A stretch of 41,190 bases of DNA from assembly GCA_949287505.1 (NCBI GenBank), contig CASEGX010000122.1:1-41190 (forward strand). The letters run 5' to 3'. The notes below the pieces were generated by a model. It worked only from the letters and a program-made list of their open reading frames with translations, did not search any database and was not told where the DNA came from. The translations under genes and the position numbers were made by a program. Origin of the DNA: an uncultured Spirochaetales bacterium (lineage in GTDB: Bacteria; Spirochaetota; Spirochaetia; Sphaerochaetales; Sphaerochaetaceae). Below are positions 6,727 through 41,190 of this stretch, in pieces (the stretch's first letter is position 1; each line of letters starts with the position of its first letter).

Positions 6727-6735
6727 GATTACACT

Positions 6736-6818
6736 CCCCAGATGGTGGAATGGTAGACACAAGGGACTTAAAATCCTTTGGTAGCAATACCGTACGAGTT
6801 CGAGTCTCGTTCTGGGGA
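6736..6818 (+). tRNA. tRNA-Leu (anticodon TAA)
   Basis: The acceptor stem CCCCAGA (6736-6742) pairs with TCTGGGG (6811-6817), with discriminator A at 6818. The anticodon loop is CTTAAAA, giving anticodon TAA. The long variable arm GGTA..TACC is the class II arm expected of Leu tRNA. The T arm is ACGAG-TTCGAGT-CTCGT. The 3' CCA is not encoded, so it must be added after transcription. Confidence 0.95.
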
Positions 6819-6847
6819 TTTTCCAGCTTATTTATTCAGCCTACTGT

Positions 6848-29211: not shown

Positions 29212-29252
29212 GCGGAAAACGGGACTTGAACCCGCGACATCCACCTTGGCAA
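29212..29252 (-). other. Prophage left attachment site: 3' fragment of tRNA-Gly(GCC)
   Basis: On the minus strand the sequence matches the 3' half of a Gly tRNA: anticodon loop TTGCCAA (29252-29246, anticodon GCC), anticodon-stem 3' strand GGTGG, T arm GCGGG-TTCAAGT-CCCGT (29235-29219), acceptor 3' strand TTTCCGC (29218-29212). No matching D arm or 5' acceptor follows; the expected CCACC stem strand is replaced by CCGGC and homology ends there. The core site is thus at least 41 bp. The terminator lies on the chromosomal side, phage-like genes on the other. Confidence 0.85.
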
Positions 29253-29411
29253 GCCGGAAAAGCTTGCAATTCTTAACTAGTATAAAACTGCATAATCTCA
29301 TGCTGGATATTGATTTACAACATCCGACAATGATTTTTAGTATCCAGAGTGTTACATCTTTTATAAAGCAACTGAGACCATTGTGCAACCTAAATCTGGA
29401 ACCACTCATAG

Positions 29412-29474: not shown

Positions 29475-30197
29475 TTAAAGCTCTACTGCTTTACCATTGA
29501 TTGTTATTGAACCTTCAGGATTCCCGAATTTAGGTATGTGCACATCTGCAATTCCGGAAGGAATGCCATTGGCAAGGTTGACTGTCACAGAAGCACGGGA
29601 GATTCCTCCCTGAGTCGTGAAGATTCCGGAGATTCCATCTGCTGTAAGTTCCATGGCAGGCAGTTCAAGATAGATATACTCGGAATCATCCACATCAAGG
29701 GCGATATCAGCATCCTCAACTCTGTAGCCAGTAGCAATGAAGGCAGTTCCATCGGCAGTCACAGCGCCCGTAAGAACAAGTGTTGCCTTTCCTGTTGCTG
29801 TCCTTGTGTAGAGATGCTTGTCAGCGTCCTCAGGATTTCTGTGTCCATCATAATCATACGCCGTAAGAGTAAGAGGCATTGAGAGCTCTGTCCTATTGAT
29901 ATCAAAAGATATCTGCCCGGCAACCATTGACTGAACAGTCACACCAGGCTCATCATCCACAGGCTCACCCTTCAGGATATGATCTATGTCACCAAGAACT
30001 CTGACGTGACCAAACGCTCCCATATAGGAGTCAAATGCCTTTATCTCATCTGCTGTAGGAGTCTCCGGTTCTGTCATTGTTCCCGGATTATCATCTACTC
30101 CTGGATTTGGTTCAGGAACAGATGAGTTCTCCATTGAACATGCAACAACCATAAGAACCATTGCAATGATAAGCATAGCTGATATTATTTTTTTCAT
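29475..30197 (-). CDS. Prophage lipoprotein of unknown function
   Basis: The start at ATG 30197 gives 240 residues. Residues 1-21 form a lipoprotein signal with lipobox MVVAC (Cys21), then a Pro/Glu/Asp-rich linker (VPEPNPGVDDNPGTMTEPE) and a beta-rich domain ending GNPEGSITINGKAVEL. I do not recognise the family. It is the last gene of the minus-strand phage operon and the one nearest the attachment site, a common place for cargo genes that alter the host surface. A role as an outer-membrane partner in lysis is also possible. Confidence 0.78.
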   Translation of the reverse strand: MKKIISAMLIIAMVLMVVACSMENSSVPEPNPGVDDNPGTMTEPETPTADEIKAFDSYMGAFGHVRVLGDIDHILKGEPVDDEPGVTVQSMVAGQISFDINRTELSMPLTLTAYDYDGHRNPEDADKHLYTRTATGKATLVLTGAVTADGTAFIATGYRVEDADIALDVDDSEYIYLELPAMELTADGISGIFTTQGGISRASVTVNLANGIPSGIADVHIPKFGNPEGSITINGKAVEL

Positions 30198-30220
30198 TTT
30201 TTTACTTACCTCTCCTGTCA

Positions 30221-30862
30221 TCAGAACATCCATCCAACTGATGCTCTGAATTCGAAATTATCAAGGCTGAATTCCTTGATAATCATTCCATGGTCAAACA
30301 TACCCACTGTATAGTCGACACCGAGTTCCGCCATCAGAGAATTCCCAATTCGTGTACCGATCGTAAGACCAAGTCCATAGTCAGGAATACCTTCAGAAAA
30401 CCCGATGATTCCATCGACCATCAGATAGGCCTTCGTTCCTGTTTCCTCTTCGGCTGAAGCAAGGCGAGCCTTGAGATCTGTGATTTCGGCATCCTTGGCT
30501 TCAGAGGCTTCACGGGCTGCAGCGGCCTCATCCCTTGCTTCGACAAGGGTAAAGTAGAGTTCCTGTGACTCATCACCATTAAGCCTCCTTCCCTCCTCTG
30601 CCTTTGTCAGCAAGCTCGACTGCTCTGTTGAGATGCTTTCCGAGGCTGTCCCAGAGGGCTTGTTCTGCAATGACTCCTCCGCTATTGGCTTTTCCGTCAT
30701 AGCGGTAGGAGTCTCTATTTCTATCGGTTCTTCCTTTATTTCTGCCCGCTGCATAGGCCATGCCGCCAATGGCAGCAGTGCCAAGAAGAGCACAAAGAAA
30801 CCGGCCAGGAGGACTCTGCAGAGCCTCCCTGAACCTCTTCCAAAATCCTTTCTTTTCTTCAT
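30221..30862 (-). CDS. Prophage exported coiled-coil protein with C-terminal beta domain
   Basis: AAGGAG lies 10 bases before ATG 30862 (213 residues); an ATG at 30883 in frame overlaps that signal. Residues 15-36 are a signal or anchor (LCRVLLAGFFVLFLALLPLA). Residues 38-95 are Pro/Glu/Ser/Thr-rich, 96-138 are a coiled coil (EARDEAAAAREASEAKDAEI), and the C-terminus has four or five amphipathic strands ending in FRASVGWMF, like the terminal Phe of outer-membrane beta proteins. The layout is reminiscent of a spanin (membrane anchor, coiled coil, outer-membrane contact), but no lipobox is seen. Its first 284 bases overlap the next gene in another frame. Confidence 0.68.
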   Translation of the reverse strand: MKKRKDFGRGSGRLCRVLLAGFFVLFLALLPLAAWPMQRAEIKEEPIEIETPTAMTEKPIAEESLQNKPSGTASESISTEQSSLLTKAEEGRRLNGDESQELYFTLVEARDEAAAAREASEAKDAEITDLKARLASAEEETGTKAYLMVDGIIGFSEGIPDYGLGLTIGTRIGNSLMAELGVDYTVGMFDHGMIIKEFSLDNFEFRASVGWMF

Positions 30863-30893
30863 TTCTGTTTTTCTCCTTATCATCGTTATCCAT
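30579..30893 (-). CDS. Small membrane protein overlapping the coiled-coil gene in another frame
   Basis: GAGGAG lies seven bases before ATG 30893, giving 104 residues. A highly charged N-terminus (DNDDKEKNRNEEKKG) with an amphipathic FWKRFREALQ stretch is followed by one transmembrane segment (about residues 32-48, FLCALLGTAAIGGMAYA) and a basic, polar C-terminus. Function is unknown. It overlaps the 213-residue protein by 284 bases in a different frame, and both have good ribosome-binding sites and plausible membrane topology, recalling nested Rz/Rz1-type lysis genes. One of the two might still be a chance open frame. Confidence 0.6.
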   Translation of the reverse strand: MDNDDKEKNRNEEKKGFWKRFREALQSPPGRFLCALLGTAAIGGMAYAAGRNKGRTDRNRDSYRYDGKANSGGVIAEQALWDSLGKHLNRAVELADKGRGGKEA

Positions 30894-30915
30894 TTGCAGT
30901 CTCCTCTTTTTTATT

Positions 30916-31590
30916 TCAAGCTGAGGCTGTATCCCTGTTTCTCCTGGCAATAAGCGTGTTGATGTATGTAGCGATATTGGTCAGAGCTGCAGACTTCTCC
31001 TGAGCACTGAGAGTGCTGGAATGAGCGACGCTGTTGTAGGTTCCGTACCCAGAAACAAAAGGCTGATCAGTGAGCAGCTCACCTTCCAGACTATCGCCCT
31101 CGAGCCGGCAAAACAGTGTCTCCTTCAGGGCGTTTCTTACCCCCTCGTCATCAAGCTGAGGGAAAGTCTTCGAGGCTTTCCTGTATGCTTTCGAGAGGAT
31201 AACGAGAAGCCGCTCATCGTCCGTCATTACAGAGAACCTGTAGCAGAACCAGAACCAGCAGTACGTACCAGCAGAAGCCCCTGCAAGCAGAAGCCCTCTC
31301 AGAATGAACTGGAGCCATGTCTCACATGCCGCAAAGAAGAGCCAGAGCCCTGAGCATACGAGAATGAAAGCCCCTCCTACCATGTACTGCCATGTGAACA
31401 GTGTTGGATCTGTGAAAGCTTTCTCCATCGCATCGGATGCAAGAAGAGTCACAACCGTTATGAATACGACTGCAGTAAGGCCATCAACCATCGTCAGAAG
31501 GTCCGTTGCCATAAGCGAGTACAGAACCCAGAGACCGATGACGATACCGAATGCAGAAGCATTCCTGAAAAATGCATTCTTATCCTTCAT
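30916..31590 (-). CDS. Prophage multi-pass membrane protein
   Basis: This 224-residue protein has about four N-terminal transmembrane helices (in residues 10-115, for example ASAFGIVIGLWVLYSLM and MVGGAFILVCSGLWLFFA) and a cytosolic-looking C-terminal domain (about 122-224, DDERLLVILSKAYRKASKTF). I do not recognise a family. Its start overlaps the stop of the holin-like gene by 4 bases, so they are coupled. The operon context with small membrane proteins suggests a part in lysis or membrane modification. Confidence 0.72.
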   Translation of the reverse strand: MKDKNAFFRNASAFGIVIGLWVLYSLMATDLLTMVDGLTAVVFITVVTLLASDAMEKAFTDPTLFTWQYMVGGAFILVCSGLWLFFAACETWLQFILRGLLLAGASAGTYCWFWFCYRFSVMTDDERLLVILSKAYRKASKTFPQLDDEGVRNALKETLFCRLEGDSLEGELLTDQPFVSGYGTYNSVAHSSTLSAQEKSAALTNIATYINTLIARRNRDTASA

Positions 31591-31925
31591 GCTTTCTTCC
31601 CTTCCTTACCTGCGGCATTCCCTCTTCTGCTCTTTCGAAAGCGATGCAAACCGTGGAGAATATCCCAGCCCGTGATAGCAAGAGCTGCTGTCGGAAGACC
31701 AAGTGAGATGCCGTGGGTGAAAATAACCTCATACCAGAACTCTGCCCCATACATATCCAGGGACTTCCAGGCTCCTATGAGGCACCAGAGAATGAAGGAA
31801 ATAGCCGTAAGAATAACGGCAATCAGCTCATTAGGTGTTCCTGTTCTGTATTTGAGAACGGAGCCAAGAAGATTGAGGATAAGCGCGACGGCAAGCATCC
31901 CGGAAGAGATGACAAAAATATCCAT
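31587..31925 (-). CDS. Holin-like small membrane protein
   Basis: This 112-residue protein has three transmembrane segments (near residues 3-22, 33-52 and 68-90) and a short, strongly basic C-terminus (HRFRKSRRGNAAGKEGKKA), the profile of a class I holin. It is the first gene of a four- to five-gene membrane operon and lies 73 bases after a copy of the 22-bp phage element. A second, out-of-frame start (ATG 31941) with AAGGAG upstream could encode a 36-residue peptide overlapping this gene. Holin identity rests on topology and context only. Confidence 0.6.
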   Translation of the reverse strand: MDIFVISSGMLAVALILNLLGSVLKYRTGTPNELIAVILTAISFILWCLIGAWKSLDMYGAEFWYEVIFTHGISLGLPTAALAITGWDILHGLHRFRKSRRGNAAGKEGKKA

Positions 31926-32837: not shown

Positions 32838-33989
32838 TCAAATGTTATCATCTGTCGCCTCCTTTATTTGCATACTTCTATTTGGAACAACAACGAATCG
32901 ATCGTCATTACCAATATATTTTATAATTTCCTCTGGATATAGATTAAATGTTCTGACTATATCCATTGGTGTAATAAGGTTCTTTTCAAACGCAAAATCA
33001 TATGCTGTGGTCACATAATAAGGCTTCTCAGGAGGAAAAGCGTTGTCTCCAGGCTCTTCTTTTCTCCATCCTTTTTTTGAGAGATCTATGTAAAAGTATT
33101 TGTAGTGATCCCTATCCAGTTTTCCAACTTCAAACATTCTCCGTCCAATAGCAGCAACTGACATACGCCAATAACCTTTAAGACGTACTGCTTCTTTAAC
33201 GTTGGAGTACCCAACAGAATCCCTAAAAACGCTAAAGGGCATCATAAAAGCATTGGCAAATCTATGGGCTTGCTGTTCAGCTTTAGCATGAAACTGCTCA
33301 TAGGATTCTTTACTCCAATTGCTGTGAAGAATAATGTGGCCAAGTTCATGCGCAAGAGTGAAACGCTGTCTGAAATAGGTGAGCCTGTTATTATAAATAA
33401 TTACAGGGTGTTTCAAATCATTCTCATCTTTGAATGTTACATTAACAGAATCTATAGTTTCTGGAAGGTCATATCCAAAGCATATGATTCCATGATTCTC
33501 CATAAGTGCAATCAGATTTATGATTGGATAGTCACCAAGGCCGAACTCATCTCTCATTTGTTTTGCATATGATTCTATTTTCTCATCTGAAATCAGAGTC
33601 TCAGGGGTATTTTCCTTTGCCCTTGTCTGTATATCTTCAGTTGCAATCCTTACCTTCTGTATCAAGAAGGACAAGAACATAGAAAACCGTTTCAATACAA
33701 GGGAAACCTGCTCATTGTCACGTTTTCGTGCACTAGCAAAACTTCTGAATGTTATAGGTGTGCACACTTTAAGATTTGCTGTATACTCGGAATAAAAGAA
33801 ATCAACAGGCTTCTTTAAGATAGAAGAAAGATTCGCCATTGTCTCTATAGTAGGACTCAAAGTTTTTCCTCCTTCTAAAGCAGAAACGGCAGCTCGTGAC
33901 AGGTTCAAACTCCTTGCGAGTTCGGCCTGTGAAATTCCAAGCTCCTGTCTTGCTTCTTTTATTTGTTCGCCGATTATTTTCTTTTCCAT
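32838..33989 (-). CDS. XRE-family repressor with ImmA/IrrE metallopeptidase domain
   Basis: Residues 8-62 of this 383-residue protein are a helix-turn-helix of the XRE type (GISQAELARSLNLSRAAVSALEGG). Residues about 130-260 form an ImmA/IrrE peptidase domain with zinc motif HELGH (214-218) and the third ligand Glu238 in AEQQAHRFANAFMMP. Such fusions act as SOS- or signal-responsive switch proteins of mobile elements. It has no neighbouring cI-like gene in the window, so it may combine repressor and antirepressor roles itself. It is monocistronic on the minus strand and lacks an obvious Shine-Dalgarno. Confidence 0.9.
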   Translation of the reverse strand: MEKKIIGEQIKEARQELGISQAELARSLNLSRAAVSALEGGKTLSPTIETMANLSSILKKPVDFFYSEYTANLKVCTPITFRSFASARKRDNEQVSLVLKRFSMFLSFLIQKVRIATEDIQTRAKENTPETLISDEKIESYAKQMRDEFGLGDYPIINLIALMENHGIICFGYDLPETIDSVNVTFKDENDLKHPVIIYNNRLTYFRQRFTLAHELGHIILHSNWSKESYEQFHAKAEQQAHRFANAFMMPFSVFRDSVGYSNVKEAVRLKGYWRMSVAAIGRRMFEVGKLDRDHYKYFYIDLSKKGWRKEEPGDNAFPPEKPYYVTTAYDFAFEKNLITPMDIVRTFNLYPEEIIKYIGNDDRFVVVPNRSMQIKEATDDNI

Positions 33990-34480: not shown

Positions 34481-34873
34481 GTGAAGAAGGTATTAATCGT
34501 ATCGATGATTGTGCTGATTGCAGCAGTGACTTTCGTCTCATGCACAGACAGGCCGGATCCAGCGCTTTTGCCGGAACCTGTCATTAACTTCAAAGCTGTA
34601 AAGGAAACGTTGGGAACAGGAATCAGAGTTGATCTTCTCAACATTGAAGAAACTCTGAATGATTTTTCTGTTGGAACAAATGTACATTGCCTCATTACAG
34701 ACGAATTGGGTAATACACTGTTCTCTGAAACATACGATAATCAGTATGAAATACACTCTCCCATATCAGCATTAGTTGATGATGTTGCCGTAGGAGAAGT
34801 CCTTACATGTACGGTCACATATGAGTACAGAGGTGTAACGACTTCAGCAACAGCAACAGATACCGTAGTGTAA
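34481..34873 (+). CDS. Small prophage lipoprotein
   Basis: GTG start at 34481 follows AAAGGAG. The product has 130 residues. Residues 1-21 are a lipoprotein signal with lipobox TFVSC (Cys21). The mature part has a Pro-rich linker and a beta-sandwich-like domain (FSVGTNVHCLITDELGNTLF, VGEVLTCTVTYEYRGVTTSA). It is the only complete plus-strand gene among its neighbours and has its own 22-bp phage element and terminator, so it is an independent transcription unit. Lone prophage lipoproteins are often superinfection-exclusion or surface-modifying factors; that role here is inference. Confidence 0.75.
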   Translation: MKKVLIVSMIVLIAAVTFVSCTDRPDPALLPEPVINFKAVKETLGTGIRVDLLNIEETLNDFSVGTNVHCLITDELGNTLFSETYDNQYEIHSPISALVDDVAVGEVLTCTVTYEYRGVTTSATATDTVV

Positions 34874-34917
34874 TTACAGCAAATCACTCTTCCAAAGATT
34901 TTTCATTATTCTACATA

Positions 34918-34955
34918 AGCCCGCAGTATACCAGCACTATCTGCGGGCTTTATTA
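34918..34955 (+). terminator. Terminator of the plus-strand lipoprotein gene
   Basis: AGCCCGCAG (34918-34926) pairs perfectly with CTGCGGGCT (34941-34949), followed by TTATTAT. It separates the lipoprotein gene from the silent tail-fibre cassette. Confidence 0.8.
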
Positions 34956-35019
34956 TATGAAGCATCTTGTTTGTCAAATATGTGAGAAACCTAGATACTA
35001 TCAGCAATACTGCTATAAG

Positions 35020-35158
35020 CGGCACATGCTCGTCCGGTGGCTCTGTGACAATAACAGCCTCAGGCACAATGACAGCATATGCAACTGCCTCCGGGTACAG
35101 CCAGAGTTCTACGGTAAGCAAGAGCTGCTCATATACATTGCCAGAACTGCCAGAGTTT
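35020..35158 (+). repeat. 139-bp inverted repeat, left arm
   Basis: This segment is identical over 139 bases to the reverse complement of 35795-35933. It encodes the shared tail-fibre stretch from GTCSSGGSVTITASGTMTAY to CSYTLPELPEF. Both arms end at the same codon boundary, directly before the variable C-terminus. Confidence 0.93.
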
Positions 35159-35467
35159 AGTCTGACAGGCGTTGGAACAAGCAAAATCTCTAAATATTAC
35201 AAACAATATTACTTCCGAATTAATGCTAGTGGCATGCCAACTGGAACAAAATACGAGTATGATCTTATCAACTCAAGTGGAGTTGCATTTTATAATGCTT
35301 CCACAACTAGTACTGGTTTAAAGAGAATTGAATTATATTCCTTTGATTATCAAGGGGTTGATATTGGATCACCTGGTGATTTGATTACTTTTCAGGTAAC
35401 TGCTTCTTGTACTGGATACCAATCCAGAACTGTAACGGCCTCAGCTAAAATGGCTGATAATACATAA
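35021..35467 (+). pseudogene. Silent alternative C-terminal cassette of the tail fibre
   Basis: The plus strand carries the shared fibre segment (35021-35158) followed in frame by a different 102-residue C-terminus (SLTGVGTSKISKYYKQYYF to AKMADNT) and a stop at 35467. There is no complete gene start or N-terminal fibre region in front of it, and a terminator blocks read-through from the lipoprotein gene, so it is not expressed in this orientation. The cassette is homologous but diverged from the expressed end; both share SG/PSGT- and VTAS(C/Y)TGY-type motifs. Inversion between the arms would fuse it to the fibre gene. Confidence 0.8.
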
Positions 35468-35488
35468 ATTAAAGAGAGAACAATAATA

Positions 35489-36877
35489 TCAGCTCATGTC
35501 AACAACAGTAAAACGACCCAAGGATTCAGTTCTTGAAATATAACCAGTGTAAGAAGCAGTTACAGAAACCTCTATATAAGGACTGCTTGACTTTATTGGA
35601 TATCCATTCCCGGCATTATGATAGTCCGTATTAAGCCTTCCTGTTCCAGTTATTGAATCAGTCCAAAGGACTTCAGTTCCTTTACTAAAAGTAAATGTAA
35701 ATAAAGTTCCAGATGGTATGCTATTTCCTCTGATATTTACAGTGCCGTTGATAGTGTAAAAACCATATGTTGAAAAAGAAACGTTATAAACCTCAAACTC
35801 TGGCAGTTCTGGCAATGTATATGAGCAGCTCTTGCTTACCGTAGAACTCTGGCTGTACCCGGAGGCAGTTGCATATGCTGTCATTGTGCCTGAGGCTGTT
35901 ATTGTCACAGAGCCACCGGACGAGCATGTGCCGGAAACTCCACATCCTGAATAATGGATTGTAGCTCCTGATGTGGAACAGCTGAAAGAAACGACATTGC
36001 CACTCTGTGAGATGGAGGGTGTGGCACATTTCGGAGCAGTATATGTGCATGTCCTGGAAACGGTATTGCTCTGCCTGTATCCGCTCCTTGTAGCATATGC
36101 ATAGATTGTTGTCGTAGACGAGATGGTGAAAGAGCCAGAATATACAGAATATGATCCACTTGCCCCTCTTCTGTAGTAAATCGTAGCTCCTGATGTAGAG
36201 CATGTGATTGTAACTCTATTCGTCGAGGAACTGAATGATATACTCGGGCTTGCACACTGAGGTGCAACATATGCCGGTATAGTTCCTGTCGTACTTGATG
36301 ACTGAGACTCATACAGTGCACTGCCATCATATCTGGCATATACCGTAACAGTCGTTGCAGAGGTTCCAATGCTAATGCTTATCGAGCTGGAAAGCGCATA
36401 AGAAGTACCATTAACATAAATCCTAGTACCGCTTGGATACGAAGAATAATTGCTTATCGTAACTCTGCCCTGAGAGCTTGATACGCGGCTTACTGAGATA
36501 CTTGGTGTAGGCAACTTTGATAAAGTCGCTTTAGCGAATCTGGCAATAAATGATGGAGATGGATTATATATGCTCTCCCCTACAGGAAAAGCTCTCAGAT
36601 AGTAATTACCACTTGATGTGACAGTGATGCCATTAGTCATATCGAAAACAGCATCGCTTTCTGTCGGATCTGACCCGACTTTATATCTTACGGTGACATT
36701 CCCATAGCCTGAGAAGTTATGCCGTAATTTTATTACAGCACTCTGATTCTTGCTTCCATAAGTGACAGAGACCATAGGTGCAGGCAGGAACCGCGGGTAT
36801 TTATTAGCCTGTTCCCTGAAATACTTTTTCATGCCACTCCAGAAAGCTCCTACTCCTGTACCACTCAGATAAGCCAT
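35489..36877 (-). CDS. Prophage tail-fibre/adhesin with switchable C-terminus
   Basis: Residues 1-115 of this 462-residue protein are a head domain shared with the next gene (GTGVGAFWSGMKKYF, FSGYGNVTVRYKVGSDPTES). Residues 120-360 contain tandem chitobiase C-terminal-like modules with repeats such as CSTSGATIYY and STVSKSCSYT. Residues about 316-361 are encoded by the inverted repeat, and 362-462 form the variable receptor-binding tip. The homologous alternative tip lies inverted just downstream, 21 bases beyond the stop. It is the last gene of the tail operon 38962-35489. Start ATG 36877; the ribosome-binding site is weak. It should determine host or receptor recognition. Confidence 0.85.
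   Translation of the reverse strand: MAYLSGTGVGAFWSGMKKYFREQANKYPRFLPAPMVSVTYGSKNQSAVIKLRHNFSGYGNVTVRYKVGSDPTESDAVFDMTNGITVTSSGNYYLRAFPVGESIYNPSPSFIARFAKATLSKLPTPSISVSRVSSSQGRVTISNYSSYPSGTRIYVNGTSYALSSSISISIGTSATTVTVYARYDGSALYESQSSSTTGTIPAYVAPQCASPSISFSSSTNRVTITCSTSGATIYYRRGASGSYSVYSGSFTISSTTTIYAYATRSGYRQSNTVSRTCTYTAPKCATPSISQSGNVVSFSCSTSGATIHYSGCGVSGTCSSGGSVTITASGTMTAYATASGYSQSSTVSKSCSYTLPELPEFEVYNVSFSTYGFYTINGTVNIRGNSIPSGTLFTFTFSKGTEVLWTDSITGTGRLNTDYHNAGNGYPIKSSSPYIEVSVTASYTGYISRTESLGRFTVVDMS
35795..35933 (-). repeat. 139-bp inverted repeat, right arm
   Basis: This is the exact reverse complement of 35020-35158 and lies inside the expressed tail-fibre gene (residues about 316-361). The 636 bases between the arms contain the two alternative C-termini, end to end. 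Confidence 0.93.
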
Positions 36878-36902: not shown

Positions 36903-37268
36903 TCAGAAAGTCACATTCAGAAGGAAGGAAGCAGATGCGATATAGGAGCTTCCAGACCCCGGAAATGCCTTTATGTAATATGTGCCTCTTGCAGATACGA
37001 CAGTACCGTTGACAGTATCAAGCTGTGCATCAGAAACCGTCGGTTCTGAGCCGAGCTTGTATCTTACGGTCACGCTGTCATATCCAGAGTAATTGTTATC
37101 TAGCTTGATTCTCGCGGAGCTTCCCGATACAGCCTCCACAGAACATACAGGGATCTGCAATGGCACTGACAAAGCCAGCACATTCGCATCAACATAATCT
37201 TTCACGTTGTCCCAAAGAAAGCCGACCCCGGCTCCATCAAGCATCTTATTGCTTACAGTATCCGGCAT
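36903..37268 (-). CDS. Short tail-fibre paralogue (head domain only)
   Basis: This 121-residue protein matches the first 115 residues of the following fibre gene: LDGAGVGFLWDNVKDYV against SGTGVGAFWSGMKKYF, and YSGYDSVTVRYKLGSEPTVS against FSGYGNVTVRYKVGSDPTES. It ends where the chitobiase-like modules begin in the long protein. It may be a separate fibre subunit, a chaperone-like partner, or the relic of a duplication. A good GAGGTGAT precedes the ATG. Confidence 0.75.
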   Translation of the reverse strand: MPDTVSNKMLDGAGVGFLWDNVKDYVDANVLALSVPLQIPVCSVEAVSGSSARIKLDNNYSGYDSVTVRYKLGSEPTVSDAQLDTVNGTVVSARGTYYIKAFPGSGSSYIASASFLLNVTF

Positions 37269-37278
37269 TCATCACCTC

Positions 37279-37962
37279 TTAACTTGCAGAACCGATTATC
37301 GAGGCAATCTCCTCTGTCGTCAGCGCTGCAGGGACTTTTGCGTCAACCTCTGTCTTTGAATATGTCTCTGTCTTCTTATAAACATCAGAAACATTGGCTT
37401 TCCCGGTGTCAAGCGTCGAGATGGATGATTCAATGGAATCAGTCTTGGTTTTCACAGCCTGAGGGGTGATTCCGCCATCTGTCTGCGTACCAAGGGAATT
37501 ATAAAGCTTTGCAATACCGGCAACTGATTCAGTAGCGGATGATATCTTTATCGTGATATTCCTGGAAGCATCAATCCAGGAAGCGGATGACGAGGAGTAA
37601 ACATACAGAACGATATCACCATCCCCGTCAGTGAGCGTGACAAGCAAGCCATCAAAGTCCTGAGGAACACGGGAGTAGTTAGTCTGGACATATGTATCAC
37701 ATGTCGTATCCACATCAGCAATCGTAGACTCAAGAATACCGCTGTTAACAGAAGACTTATTCAGTATCTTGATTGCATTTAGATTGTTGATAAGAGTCTG
37801 TATCTGTTCCGATGACAGCGTCTCATTTTTCTTGTAGTAATTAACCAGTGCAGAATTGATTGCACTGGAAACCTCTGTCGCCCCATACTTTTCTGCGAGG
37901 AGTGCCACAACCTGAGCCCAAACCTGTTCCAATCCCGTAAGATTGAGGAATTTTTCCGCCAT
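37279..37962 (-). CDS. Prophage tail-fibre/virion protein
   Basis: This 227-residue protein starts MAEKFLNLTGLEQVWAQVV after AAAGGAG, four bases after the T7-like fibre gene. A helical first half is followed by a beta segment (DFDGLLVTLTDGDGDIVLYV) and a coiled-coil-like region (TKTDSIESSISTLDTGKAN). The C-terminus LTTEEIASIIGSAS is nearly the same as the one in the upstream fibre protein. It is probably a trimeric fibre or fibre-attachment subunit; no exact family is recognised. Confidence 0.72.
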   Translation of the reverse strand: MAEKFLNLTGLEQVWAQVVALLAEKYGATEVSSAINSALVNYYKKNETLSSEQIQTLINNLNAIKILNKSSVNSGILESTIADVDTTCDTYVQTNYSRVPQDFDGLLVTLTDGDGDIVLYVYSSSSASWIDASRNITIKISSATESVAGIAKLYNSLGTQTDGGITPQAVKTKTDSIESSISTLDTGKANVSDVYKKTETYSKTEVDAKVPAALTTEEIASIIGSAS

Positions 37963-37966
37963 ATTT

Positions 37967-38962
37967 TCAATTCTCCTTTAATAGATTGTTTTTCGTATTT
38001 GTGCCGATAACAGAAGCAATTTCTTCTGAAGATAGCGCACAGTCCGGTGCTATCTGGTCCGGCATAAGAGTAAAGCCATCAGGCAATAGATCAACCACAT
38101 TCACCCTATCACAGGAAATAATCCTTACCTCCGCACCATCAACAGGCGGAGGCAGTTTGAATGTAATTTTCATTCTATTCCTATCAAGTTCTTGGATAAG
38201 ATATGGGACACCCTCATTCTTCGGGTCCGTGTACCATACCTGTGTATTCGTCCATTCAGTATTAAGGTTATGCTCAATGAGAAATTCTGTATCGGATCCA
38301 TTTCCCACTGTTACGCGCAGACCAGGGTGGAGCATTCCTTCCATCTGAGCATGAAGACTAGATACTTCTTCCTTATCAGTTGCTATCTGTTCCTGTATCT
38401 CAATGATTTTAAGAAGCGTTTTCCTAGCCTCTTCACTTGCTTCTACGGCTCCCTCGAAGTTCGAATACATCACGACTTTATTTCCATCGTCACCGAACCC
38501 TATGATTTTCCCAGCTCTTTCAGCTGGTCCCGGAAAAACAAGATCTGCAGGACTTTCTGAAATTGGAAGCTTGAACGACCTCGAGGCAATCTCCGTGAGC
38601 TGCTGTGTGATGGCAGTCAGTTTATCAAGAGAGCCCTCCAGAACCTCTGCATCAAAAGAATCACCATTTCTCAGATCAACATCCTGCTCCGGTTTCACAT
38701 ATCTTTCGATTACAAGCTTTCTTGCATTCTCTGGAAAAACATACCCTGGATTGAATACAACCTTAATAACGCCTGTATCATTTTCCGGAATAGACAGACT
38801 CCACCCAGACTCTAGATAGGGGTTATTTCCATCTGCTAGCGACAGGCTTACACTGATATCAGCATGGGAAAAGATCCTGAAAGGTATCTCATATCCGCTC
38901 TCAATAGGAATGGATATACCCTCTATATCGTAAATTATCTTCCTTTCTACAGATGTAAGCAC
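37967..38962 (-). CDS. Tail-fibre protein with T7-type N-terminal attachment domain
   Basis: GTG 38962 follows AGGAG. This 331-residue protein has an N-terminal 110-residue beta-rich domain (VERKIIYDIEGISIPIESGY, RKLVIERYVKPEQDVDLRNG) like the domain that joins T7-type fibres to the tail, then a long helical shaft (VEASEEARKTLLKIIEIQEQ). A C-terminal beta region follows (VTVGNGSDTEFLIEHNLNTE, QVWYTDPKNEG), and the end tag is LSSEEIASVIG. It heads the tail-fibre operon and lies 49 bases after phage element copy 3. It suggests a podovirus-like prophage. Confidence 0.8.
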   Translation of the reverse strand: MLTSVERKIIYDIEGISIPIESGYEIPFRIFSHADISVSLSLADGNNPYLESGWSLSIPENDTGVIKVVFNPGYVFPENARKLVIERYVKPEQDVDLRNGDSFDAEVLEGSLDKLTAITQQLTEIASRSFKLPISESPADLVFPGPAERAGKIIGFGDDGNKVVMYSNFEGAVEASEEARKTLLKIIEIQEQIATDKEEVSSLHAQMEGMLHPGLRVTVGNGSDTEFLIEHNLNTEWTNTQVWYTDPKNEGVPYLIQELDRNRMKITFKLPPPVDGAEVRIISCDRVNVVDLLPDGFTLMPDQIAPDCALSSEEIASVIGTNTKNNLLKEN

Positions 38963-39517: not shown

Positions 39518-41190
39518 TCACCTTCCAAGAAACGCTTCAGGCCCCTTCTCTGCAACTCTTATCAGATTCTTTATTCCGGAAGTAGGAGCTCCTGCAAAGA
39601 TACCTATACCTTCTGCAATATCCTTCACTCCTTCAAGGAAAGGCTTATCAGATGCGACTATATCCTCTAATCCTGAGAATACCTTGGTGATACCAGGGAA
39701 CATATCAACGCCATTGCCGTAATAATCCCGCTCCCCTGTCATGATACGCTGGACCATAAGGGAGATATCAGAACCGAAGACCGGTGTTGATTCGATTCCC
39801 TGTGTCAGGAACCAGTAGCCCATCTTCAATGCGCGGTCCTTCGCATCATCGTCGTCCTCGAAGCCATCCGCAATGAGTCCAAGCATAAGACCTGCCATGC
39901 CATAAGCAACGACAGAACCAACGATCTTACCGAACTGCCTGTTCCTGCCAAAGCCTATATTGTCCCAGACAAGGTTGTTCCAGATTACCGAAAGCGACGA
40001 CTGGAACTGAAGGAATATCTTCATAATCTCACTGGATGAACGGAAAAGAGAAGGAAGCTCTGTGCTATCACCAGCAGGCTGAACACGGAGAACGATATCA
40101 TCAGCTGTCTTTACTGCAACAGCATCCGCCAGTGCCGTATCCATTCCTGCATTCAGGTTATCCTGCAGGGCTTTCTCATATGCTCCAAGCCATCCTCCGG
40201 CTACCATGATCTTATCTGTCCAGGAAAGCCCGAGCTGACCTACTTCCTCAAACTTGTTCATAGCCCTTCTTGCTTTTGAAGATGTGACTTCACCTCTCCT
40301 CTCGAGGGCCTCCTGAAGAACAGTATTCATGGTCCTATGCTTCATCATCGATGATTTCTCATAGATGAAATTGAGAGCAGCGCCCCTGTCCTGGGCAAGC
40401 TTGATATATCCCCTCAGAAGCGTCGCAGGACTCATATCCTGCAGGAACGGCCATGCAGATGTAGTGAACTGCAGAACGATTCCTGGGAGCTTCCATCCAA
40501 GGTATGCTGAACCTACTCTTCCCCTGAGATTCTTTATCACCTTATCAAGGTTAGGAGTATTGGATTTTCTTCCTGAATACGGATCTATGACATAATCGAT
40601 ATATCCCTGGATCTCCTTCATAAGCGCGGGAGAATATACCCTGTCTACCATAGAGATAAGCTCCGTAGCATTGTTTCCGAATACGCCTCTTGTCTTCTTT
40701 GCATATCCTGCAAATTCGATGAGATGCTCCTGATTCCTTACTGATTTGTTCCATACTTCCAGAAGGGAAAGGTTTACACCTCGCTGATGACGAGGAGATA
40801 TCGCTATTCTCGATATGGTCATGCCTTTGTCGAGAGCTGCATTGAAGTCTCCTGTATTAAGATTGAACAACGCATCTGCCATATCATTCCTGAAGCTCTC
40901 GCCCCTTAGATCTGTCCTCATTATCGGGAGATAATTCCTCACTCTCTTAAGAGGAGTGTTGTATGTCTCGACAGATGCACTGTTCATCCTTCTGAAGTTC
41001 TCAGGGTCTGCAAAGTCCTCCCTTATTGAATCAGCAAGCTCAAGAAGATTCCTCTCTGACAGCTCATCCTCTGCAATGGCAAGCGCTTCCTGGAACCGCC
41101 TGTCTCCGAGAGCCTTCAGTTCATCGCTATCGACTATCGTTCCTGGGGACATCGTCTCAGGAATGAAATTGCCATTCTCATCGATTCTGC
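39518..41190 (-). CDS. Large phage virion/polyvalent-type protein, 5' part beyond right edge
   Basis: The frame is open from the stop at 39518 through the right edge; an internal ATG at 41152 is not the likely start, because the 12 codons before it still read as coding (RIDENGNFIPET). At least 556 residues are present. The visible part is mostly helical (FLQFQSSLSVIWNNLVWDNI), with a hydrophobic stretch near the end (IVGSVVAYGMAGLMLGLIA) followed by an acidic EDDDDAKD. This resembles the C-terminal helical part of very large internal virion or polyvalent proteins of podovirus-like phages. No enzyme motif is visible in this part. About 155 bases between this gene and module 2 hold nothing I recognise. 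Confidence 0.7.
   Translation of the reverse strand, partial: RIDENGNFIPETMSPGTIVDSDELKALGDRRFQEALAIAEDELSERNLLELADSIREDFADPENFRRMNSASVETYNTPLKRVRNYLPIMRTDLRGESFRNDMADALFNLNTGDFNAALDKGMTISRIAISPRHQRGVNLSLLEVWNKSVRNQEHLIEFAGYAKKTRGVFGNNATELISMVDRVYSPALMKEIQGYIDYVIDPYSGRKSNTPNLDKVIKNLRGRVGSAYLGWKLPGIVLQFTTSAWPFLQDMSPATLLRGYIKLAQDRGAALNFIYEKSSMMKHRTMNTVLQEALERRGEVTSSKARRAMNKFEEVGQLGLSWTDKIMVAGGWLGAYEKALQDNLNAGMDTALADAVAVKTADDIVLRVQPAGDSTELPSLFRSSSEIMKIFLQFQSSLSVIWNNLVWDNIGFGRNRQFGKIVGSVVAYGMAGLMLGLIADGFEDDDDAKDRALKMGYWFLTQGIESTPVFGSDISLMVQRIMTGERDYYGNGVDMFPGITKVFSGLEDIVASDKPFLEGVKDIAEGIGIFAGAPTSGIKNLIRVAEKGPEAFLGR

Follow-up and report, generated by a model that had tools for sequence, protein, structure and literature searches.

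Classical tail-fibre inversion is tied to a dedicated invertase. The locus analysed here, in which two alternative fibre ends face each other between long inverted repeats, raises the question of what could drive such a switch. Throughout, the window denotes the whole stretch of DNA under study (41,190 nucleotides), which is the entire contig C122 of a fragmented 2.29-Mb assembly (G000). A sequence-only reading had proposed that this is a prophage that swaps its tail-fibre tip by inverting a segment between perfect repeats, either through a recombinase encoded outside the window or by homologous recombination. The locus is laid out as follows.

29218-29253, + strand: attachment site (att) at the prophage end, where 36 bp of tRNA-Gly(GCC) are duplicated exactly
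29475-31925, - strand: conserved small-gene block from cassette to att, syntenic in the related genomes G009, G030, G004, G006 and G064
32838-33989, - strand: HTH and ImmA/IrrE regulator, occupying the interval of the G030 invertase
34481-34873, + strand: small lipoprotein-like gene, conserved in G009 as well as G030, at the border of the silent slot
34917-34950, + strand: terminator-like hairpin with a U-rich tail, between the lipoprotein gene and the silent slot (z -3.05)
35020-35158, + strand: left arm of the perfect inverted repeat, encoding the end of the last constant Ig-like repeat (...SCSYTLPELPEF)
35159-35467, + strand: alternative, putatively silent fibre C-terminus (102 aa plus stop; stop-free by chance with P = 2.5e-4)
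35489-35794, - strand: variable C-terminus of the expressed fibre, residues 362-462
35489-36877, - strand: expressed tail-fibre gene, coding for 462 aa with Ig-like/CHB_HEX_C repeats, modelled as beads on a string
35795-35933, - strand: right arm of the inverted repeat, within the expressed fibre gene
36903-37268, - strand: small fibre-related protein, 46% identical to the fibre N-terminus
37279-37962, - strand: tail-associated protein encoded upstream of the fibre gene; both G009 and G030 conserve it
37967-38962, - strand: tail protein (PHROG 1640), conserved in G009 (83%) and G030 (52%)
39518-41152, - strand: C-terminal part of a giant virion-type protein, cut by the contig end (3175 aa in G030)

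A repeat search of the window recovered the proposed inverted repeat at exactly the positions first read: arms at 35020-35158 and 35795-35933, each 139 nt long, 100% complementary and separated by 636 nt. Sequence identity breaks off sharply at either end of the arms, and a perfect repeat of this length lies far beyond chance. The 914-bp cassette is present as a single copy in the G000 assembly, where its sole matches are those of the two arms against each other. Each arm finishes at a codon boundary, 361 codons after the fibre start, with equal frame phases, and flipping the inner segment in silico yielded an uninterrupted in-frame fibre of 463 aa, compared with 462 aa at present; the shared codon boundary that had been claimed is therefore real. 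Two homologous C-termini thus lie opposed between inverted repeats, and either can be placed in frame with the constant part.

Both C-termini are intact and, as the sequence-only reading had it, differ from each other: they are 27% identical in a global alignment and have in common the motif PSGT/PTGT ... VTAS.TGY.SRT. The spare tip sits in an open frame (34967-35467) that runs from the same constant segment into the other tail. Such spare tails are stop-free in three phages, for which composition shuffles gave P values of 2.5e-4 (the window), 1.4e-3 and 7.5e-4. A strong hairpin just upstream and the absence of a regular gene start support the view that the tip at 35159-35467 is silent. The structure model of the fibre (mean pLDDT 82.7, lower at the tip) matched many Ig/FN3 chains but no specific relative. 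Neither the fibre, the upstream tail protein nor the exact arm pattern had a counterpart among viral contigs, and no fibre homologue was found among annotated phage records. The giant protein at the edge of the window is a single, family-conserved ORF in G030 (L026:9898-19425), to whose C-terminus window positions 39518-41190 correspond. Beside the cassette lies a variable cargo slot, which the window fills with the HTH and ImmA-like regulator, G030 with the invertase and G009 with proteases.

That the cassette belongs to a prophage, which makes up the right-hand part of the window, was confirmed by the att duplicate. The second copy of the 36-bp sequence lies at C63:47180-47215, on a contig that carries the intact tRNA-Gly with an adjoining integrase (413 aa), regulators and replication genes. 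Both prophage ends of G000 have thus been recovered, and the element has a duplicated att in a tRNA gene, an integrase and virion genes, as expected of a temperate phage. A search of the genome itself showed that the structural middle of the prophage, ∼20 kb, is absent from the assembly. The window also contains a tRNA-Leu (6735-6819) whose upstream host genes are those found at the tRNA-Leu occupied by the G009 prophage; no prophage was seen there in G000.

The same layout recurs in relatives. The prophage of G009, from the same genus, can be followed in full over contigs C25 and C56 (the giant-protein pieces abut at residues 567 and 565). Its genes follow the same order, and its cassette has a perfect inverted repeat of its own, 94 bp long, with 687 bp between the arms and two other tips. 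Within each genome the arms do not differ at all (0/139 mismatches in G000, 0/94 in G009), whereas between the two phages 27.9% of arm nucleotides differ, with synonymous changes in 61% of the codons for the same residue. This indicates that the arms were recently exchanged or homogenised, or re-duplicated, in each lineage. Tails of different phages are only 21-36% identical in most pairs. G065 shows the two-tip layout with only a short repeat in common, on a contig that stops ∼0.2-0.35 kb past the spare tip.

A third relative, G030, carries an elaborated version. Its contig C118 (43,346 bp) carries four or more tips, pointing both ways, and both of its ends fall within the cassette (L025:1-1562, L027:3210-3346), which implies a circular phage genome, the probable case, or a permuted assembly. 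Next to the tip array lies an Rci/Rin-like tyrosine recombinase of 260 aa, distinct from the integrase. The contig contains exactly four copies of the 12-mer AATACCGCTTCA, even when one mismatch is allowed, and each lies at a cassette junction. One tip was found behind two upstream sequences, that of the fibre and that of the array, and one silent-slot context was joined to either of two tips; the members of each pair agree fully over 130 nt and part at AATACCGCTTCA. Such mutually exclusive junctions suggest that the G030 population is shuffled: at the level of the assembly both orientations are present, and different arrangements appear to coexist in the sample unless the assembly is chimeric. 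Within the invertase family, the catalytic residues R130, K152, H207, R210, H233 and Y242 are all invariant, so the G030 enzyme is predicted to be catalytically intact. In G012, G018, G071, G063 and G061, too, members of the family adjoin arrayed alternative ends of tail fibres, and the G030 system is a good candidate for a Rin/Rci-type member. These tyrosine recombinases of ∼260 aa (L070, L071, L072, L073, L075 and L082), which have fibre-assembly genes as well as the arrays beside them, belong to other, unrelated-looking phages of the same genus; the copy on G063:C31 is interrupted by stops.

No comparable enzyme was found for the window. Annotation and family searches revealed no dedicated invertase at either recovered end of the G000 prophage, only an unrelated integrase, in a search that covers both ends of an element whose lacking structural middle of ∼20 kb could hide an enzyme. 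In G009, no invertase was detected in the whole prophage, in which the PF00589 matches are the integrase only, and no serine recombinase (PF00239) anywhere in the genome. The integrase of G000 shares only about 24% identity with that of G009, making a shared integrase role on the arms unlikely. The 12-bp site of G030 is absent from the window even with one mismatch allowed, and a dyad search gave no convincing tyrosine-type core within the window arms. The proposed recombinase outside the window was thus not borne out, given that neither the other prophage end of G000 nor the complete G009 prophage encodes a dedicated invertase; looking for one in the rest of the prophage paid off in one relative, G030, but not at the recovered ends in G000. 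The sole PF00239 protein of G000 is a 206-aa serine recombinase (C117:6054-6674) on a separate island, and as a general answer it was ruled out by that location and by the lack of any such protein in G009. The island (G000:C117:1-12000, L086) contains a tyrosine integrase, this serine recombinase, a DNA cytosine methyltransferase, a helicase and ATPase-like genes, and looks like a defence island.

Together, these data suggest a model, which we hold to be somewhat favoured, in which the window cassette is a two-state tail-tip switch of a temperate phage from an uncultured gut Spirochaetales bacterium, driven by homologous recombination along its long arms. The fibre would consist of constant residues 1-361 and an exchangeable tip, with the spare tip waiting downstream in the opposite direction, devoid of a start of its own and edged by the identical 139-bp arm. 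Crossing over between the inverted arms would flip 35159-35794, so that the reading frame of the constant part continues into the spare tip, and the two tips may bind different receptors. The crossover could proceed by homologous recombination or by annealing of the arms, using either host functions or the phage's own exonuclease/RusA module: phage recombination genes of this kind (YqaJ/RecE-like exonuclease, RusA, RNase T) are present in G009, and contig C63 of G000 carries homologues of them and of DUF1351. A phrog_3657 protein was considered as an annealing protein and set aside, as its model was too poor (mean pLDDT 38) and its sequence matched nothing meaningful in the PDB. Because no invertase was found in the examined parts of G000 or in the complete G009 prophage, and because the arms are long and identical, homologous recombination or annealing is the most likely pathway, and the arm identity within both genomes is consistent with it. 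Of the two drives named at the outset, homologous recombination therefore fits better than a recombinase. The invertible tail-fibre tip that had been proposed finds good support in the layout kept in G009, G065 and G030 and from the shuffled junctions of G030; for G000 we infer the inversion, its pathway and a difference in receptor, and with it any change of host range, from this organisation. Unlike that of G030, the contigs of G000 and G009 pass straight through the cassette, suggesting that a single orientation dominates in both, which counts against frequent switching.

Long repeats alone are still compatible with a site-specific enzyme acting in trans, such as host Xer, the invertase of another element, the phage integrase or an unassembled prophage gene, which would invert the segment by way of a short core inside the arms. 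We regard this as a minority possibility. G030 does have an invertase with invariant catalytic residues beside its array, G000 encodes the serine recombinase on C117, and a bifidophage locus is known that has no adjacent recombinase (PMC6109161). However, 139 bp would not be kept identical by an enzyme that works on a short core, so identity over the whole arm favours homologous exchange; moreover, the G030 site is missing from the window, the integrases of the two phages are unrelated, and G009 has neither a serine recombinase nor an invertase in its complete prophage. It is unlikely, too, that the cassette is a frozen relic, a former shufflon that has lost its invertase and whose spare tip the lysogen no longer uses, with rare gene conversion keeping the arms identical. 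Such a history would fit the missing invertase, the assembly of the contigs in one orientation and the occurrence of G030-type arrays in this phage family, yet the silent tails are still open, the layout is kept in two diverged phages, and a crossover that converts inverted arms can invert the segment as well.

Perfect arms could instead reflect youth rather than exchange, if each phage had recently and independently acquired a spare tip, along with a duplicate of the constant region, from a relative. The tails do differ among phages to the extent given above, as do the lengths and borders of the arms (139 compared with 94 bp), but G000, G009 and G030 have the cassette in the same slot, in the same orientation and beside the same lipoprotein gene, so identical acquisitions would be needed repeatedly, and we consider this quite improbable. 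Perfect inverted repeats can also arise as assembly chimeras, and the source is a metagenome assembly. A palindromic artefact, to which none of the analyses points, is nevertheless very hard to credit, as the cassette contains two different intact tails that meet the arms at an exact codon boundary and has independent counterparts in G009, G065 and G030; the same layout in G009, with perfect arms of its own and other tails, shows that the window cassette is no artefact.

A switch driven by homologous recombination would be one of several engines at this position. In G004, G006 and G064, the interval that separates the fibre from the conserved downstream block contains template/variable repeats and a reverse transcriptase (PF00078), and the differences between template and variable repeats concentrate at template adenines:

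L107:6755-8540, L106:5963-7615 and L108:7786-9452: retroelements at the fibre locus of G004, G006 and G064, with reverse transcriptase, template and variable repeats and adenine-biased differences

Judging by these signatures, a diversity-generating retroelement works on the fibre end in these three genomes. At the window locus, neither a reverse transcriptase nor a template/variable direct repeat pair was seen. We tentatively suggest, as a possibility short of an even chance, that one phage family exchanges its diversification engine at a single tail-tip locus, the choice being a retroelement, a shufflon run by a tyrosine recombinase, or a two-state flip that is enzyme-free. In the enzyme-free flip, long identical arms would stand in for the short site and the invertase, and general recombination would drive the switch. 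A limited literature search found no published account of such engines alternating at one locus within one family; in Eggerthella prophages, shufflons and diversity-generating retroelements are reported to occur in different clades (PMC8778435). Close relatives with and without the enzyme at one locus make it directly testable whether homologous recombination alone can run a fibre switch, and by what route the enzyme of a switch is acquired or lost. As other relatives house retroelements at this locus, it also offers, in the phages of these uncultured gut bacteria, a natural comparison between random mutation of a tip and a fixed set of alternative tips.

The inversion systems of Mu (Gin), P1 (Cin) and p15B (Min) have an adjacent serine recombinase and short sites. 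The window resembles them in its opposed fibre C-termini, two or more in these systems, behind one constant N-terminus, but differs in its long repeats and in that annotation of the neighbourhood found no serine invertase beside the cassette. The Rin shufflon of Bifidobacterium and Eggerthella prophages acts on a receptor-binding protein with a constant N-terminus whose C-termini are swapped by inversion (PMC6109161, PMC8778435), and G030 closely resembles it in having a separate XerD-like tyrosine invertase by the array and a short repeated site upstream of the tails. The Rci shufflon of IncI plasmids varies a pilus tip through 31-bp asymmetric sfx sites (PMC11852207); G030, G012 and G071 share with it an Rci-like tyrosine invertase and an array of alternative C-termini, whereas in the window prophage the enzyme is absent as far as determined. 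Neither the window nor G009 has a XerD-like tyrosine invertase next to its array, and the window has two tails only and a 139-bp perfect repeat in place of the 11-bp site of Rin. As it misses two defining features, the adjacent invertase and the short site, we did not class the window cassette as Gin/Cin or Rin. Diversity-generating retroelements work differently, by mutagenic copying via reverse transcriptase; the window is without one, although those of its relatives act on the same interval. Long repeats are found at the pneumococcal spnIII hsdS locus, where inverted repeats of 85 and 333 bp lie within coding sequence and still recombine independently of RecA and of the known site-specific recombinases, the local one included (PMC6620402), although these are chromosomal restriction specificity genes rather than phage fibres and spnIII has a local tyrosine recombinase. 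The nearest published parallel is a second bifidophage locus, where about 500 bp are inverted with no adjacent recombinase, albeit at an 8-bp sequence (PMC6109161).
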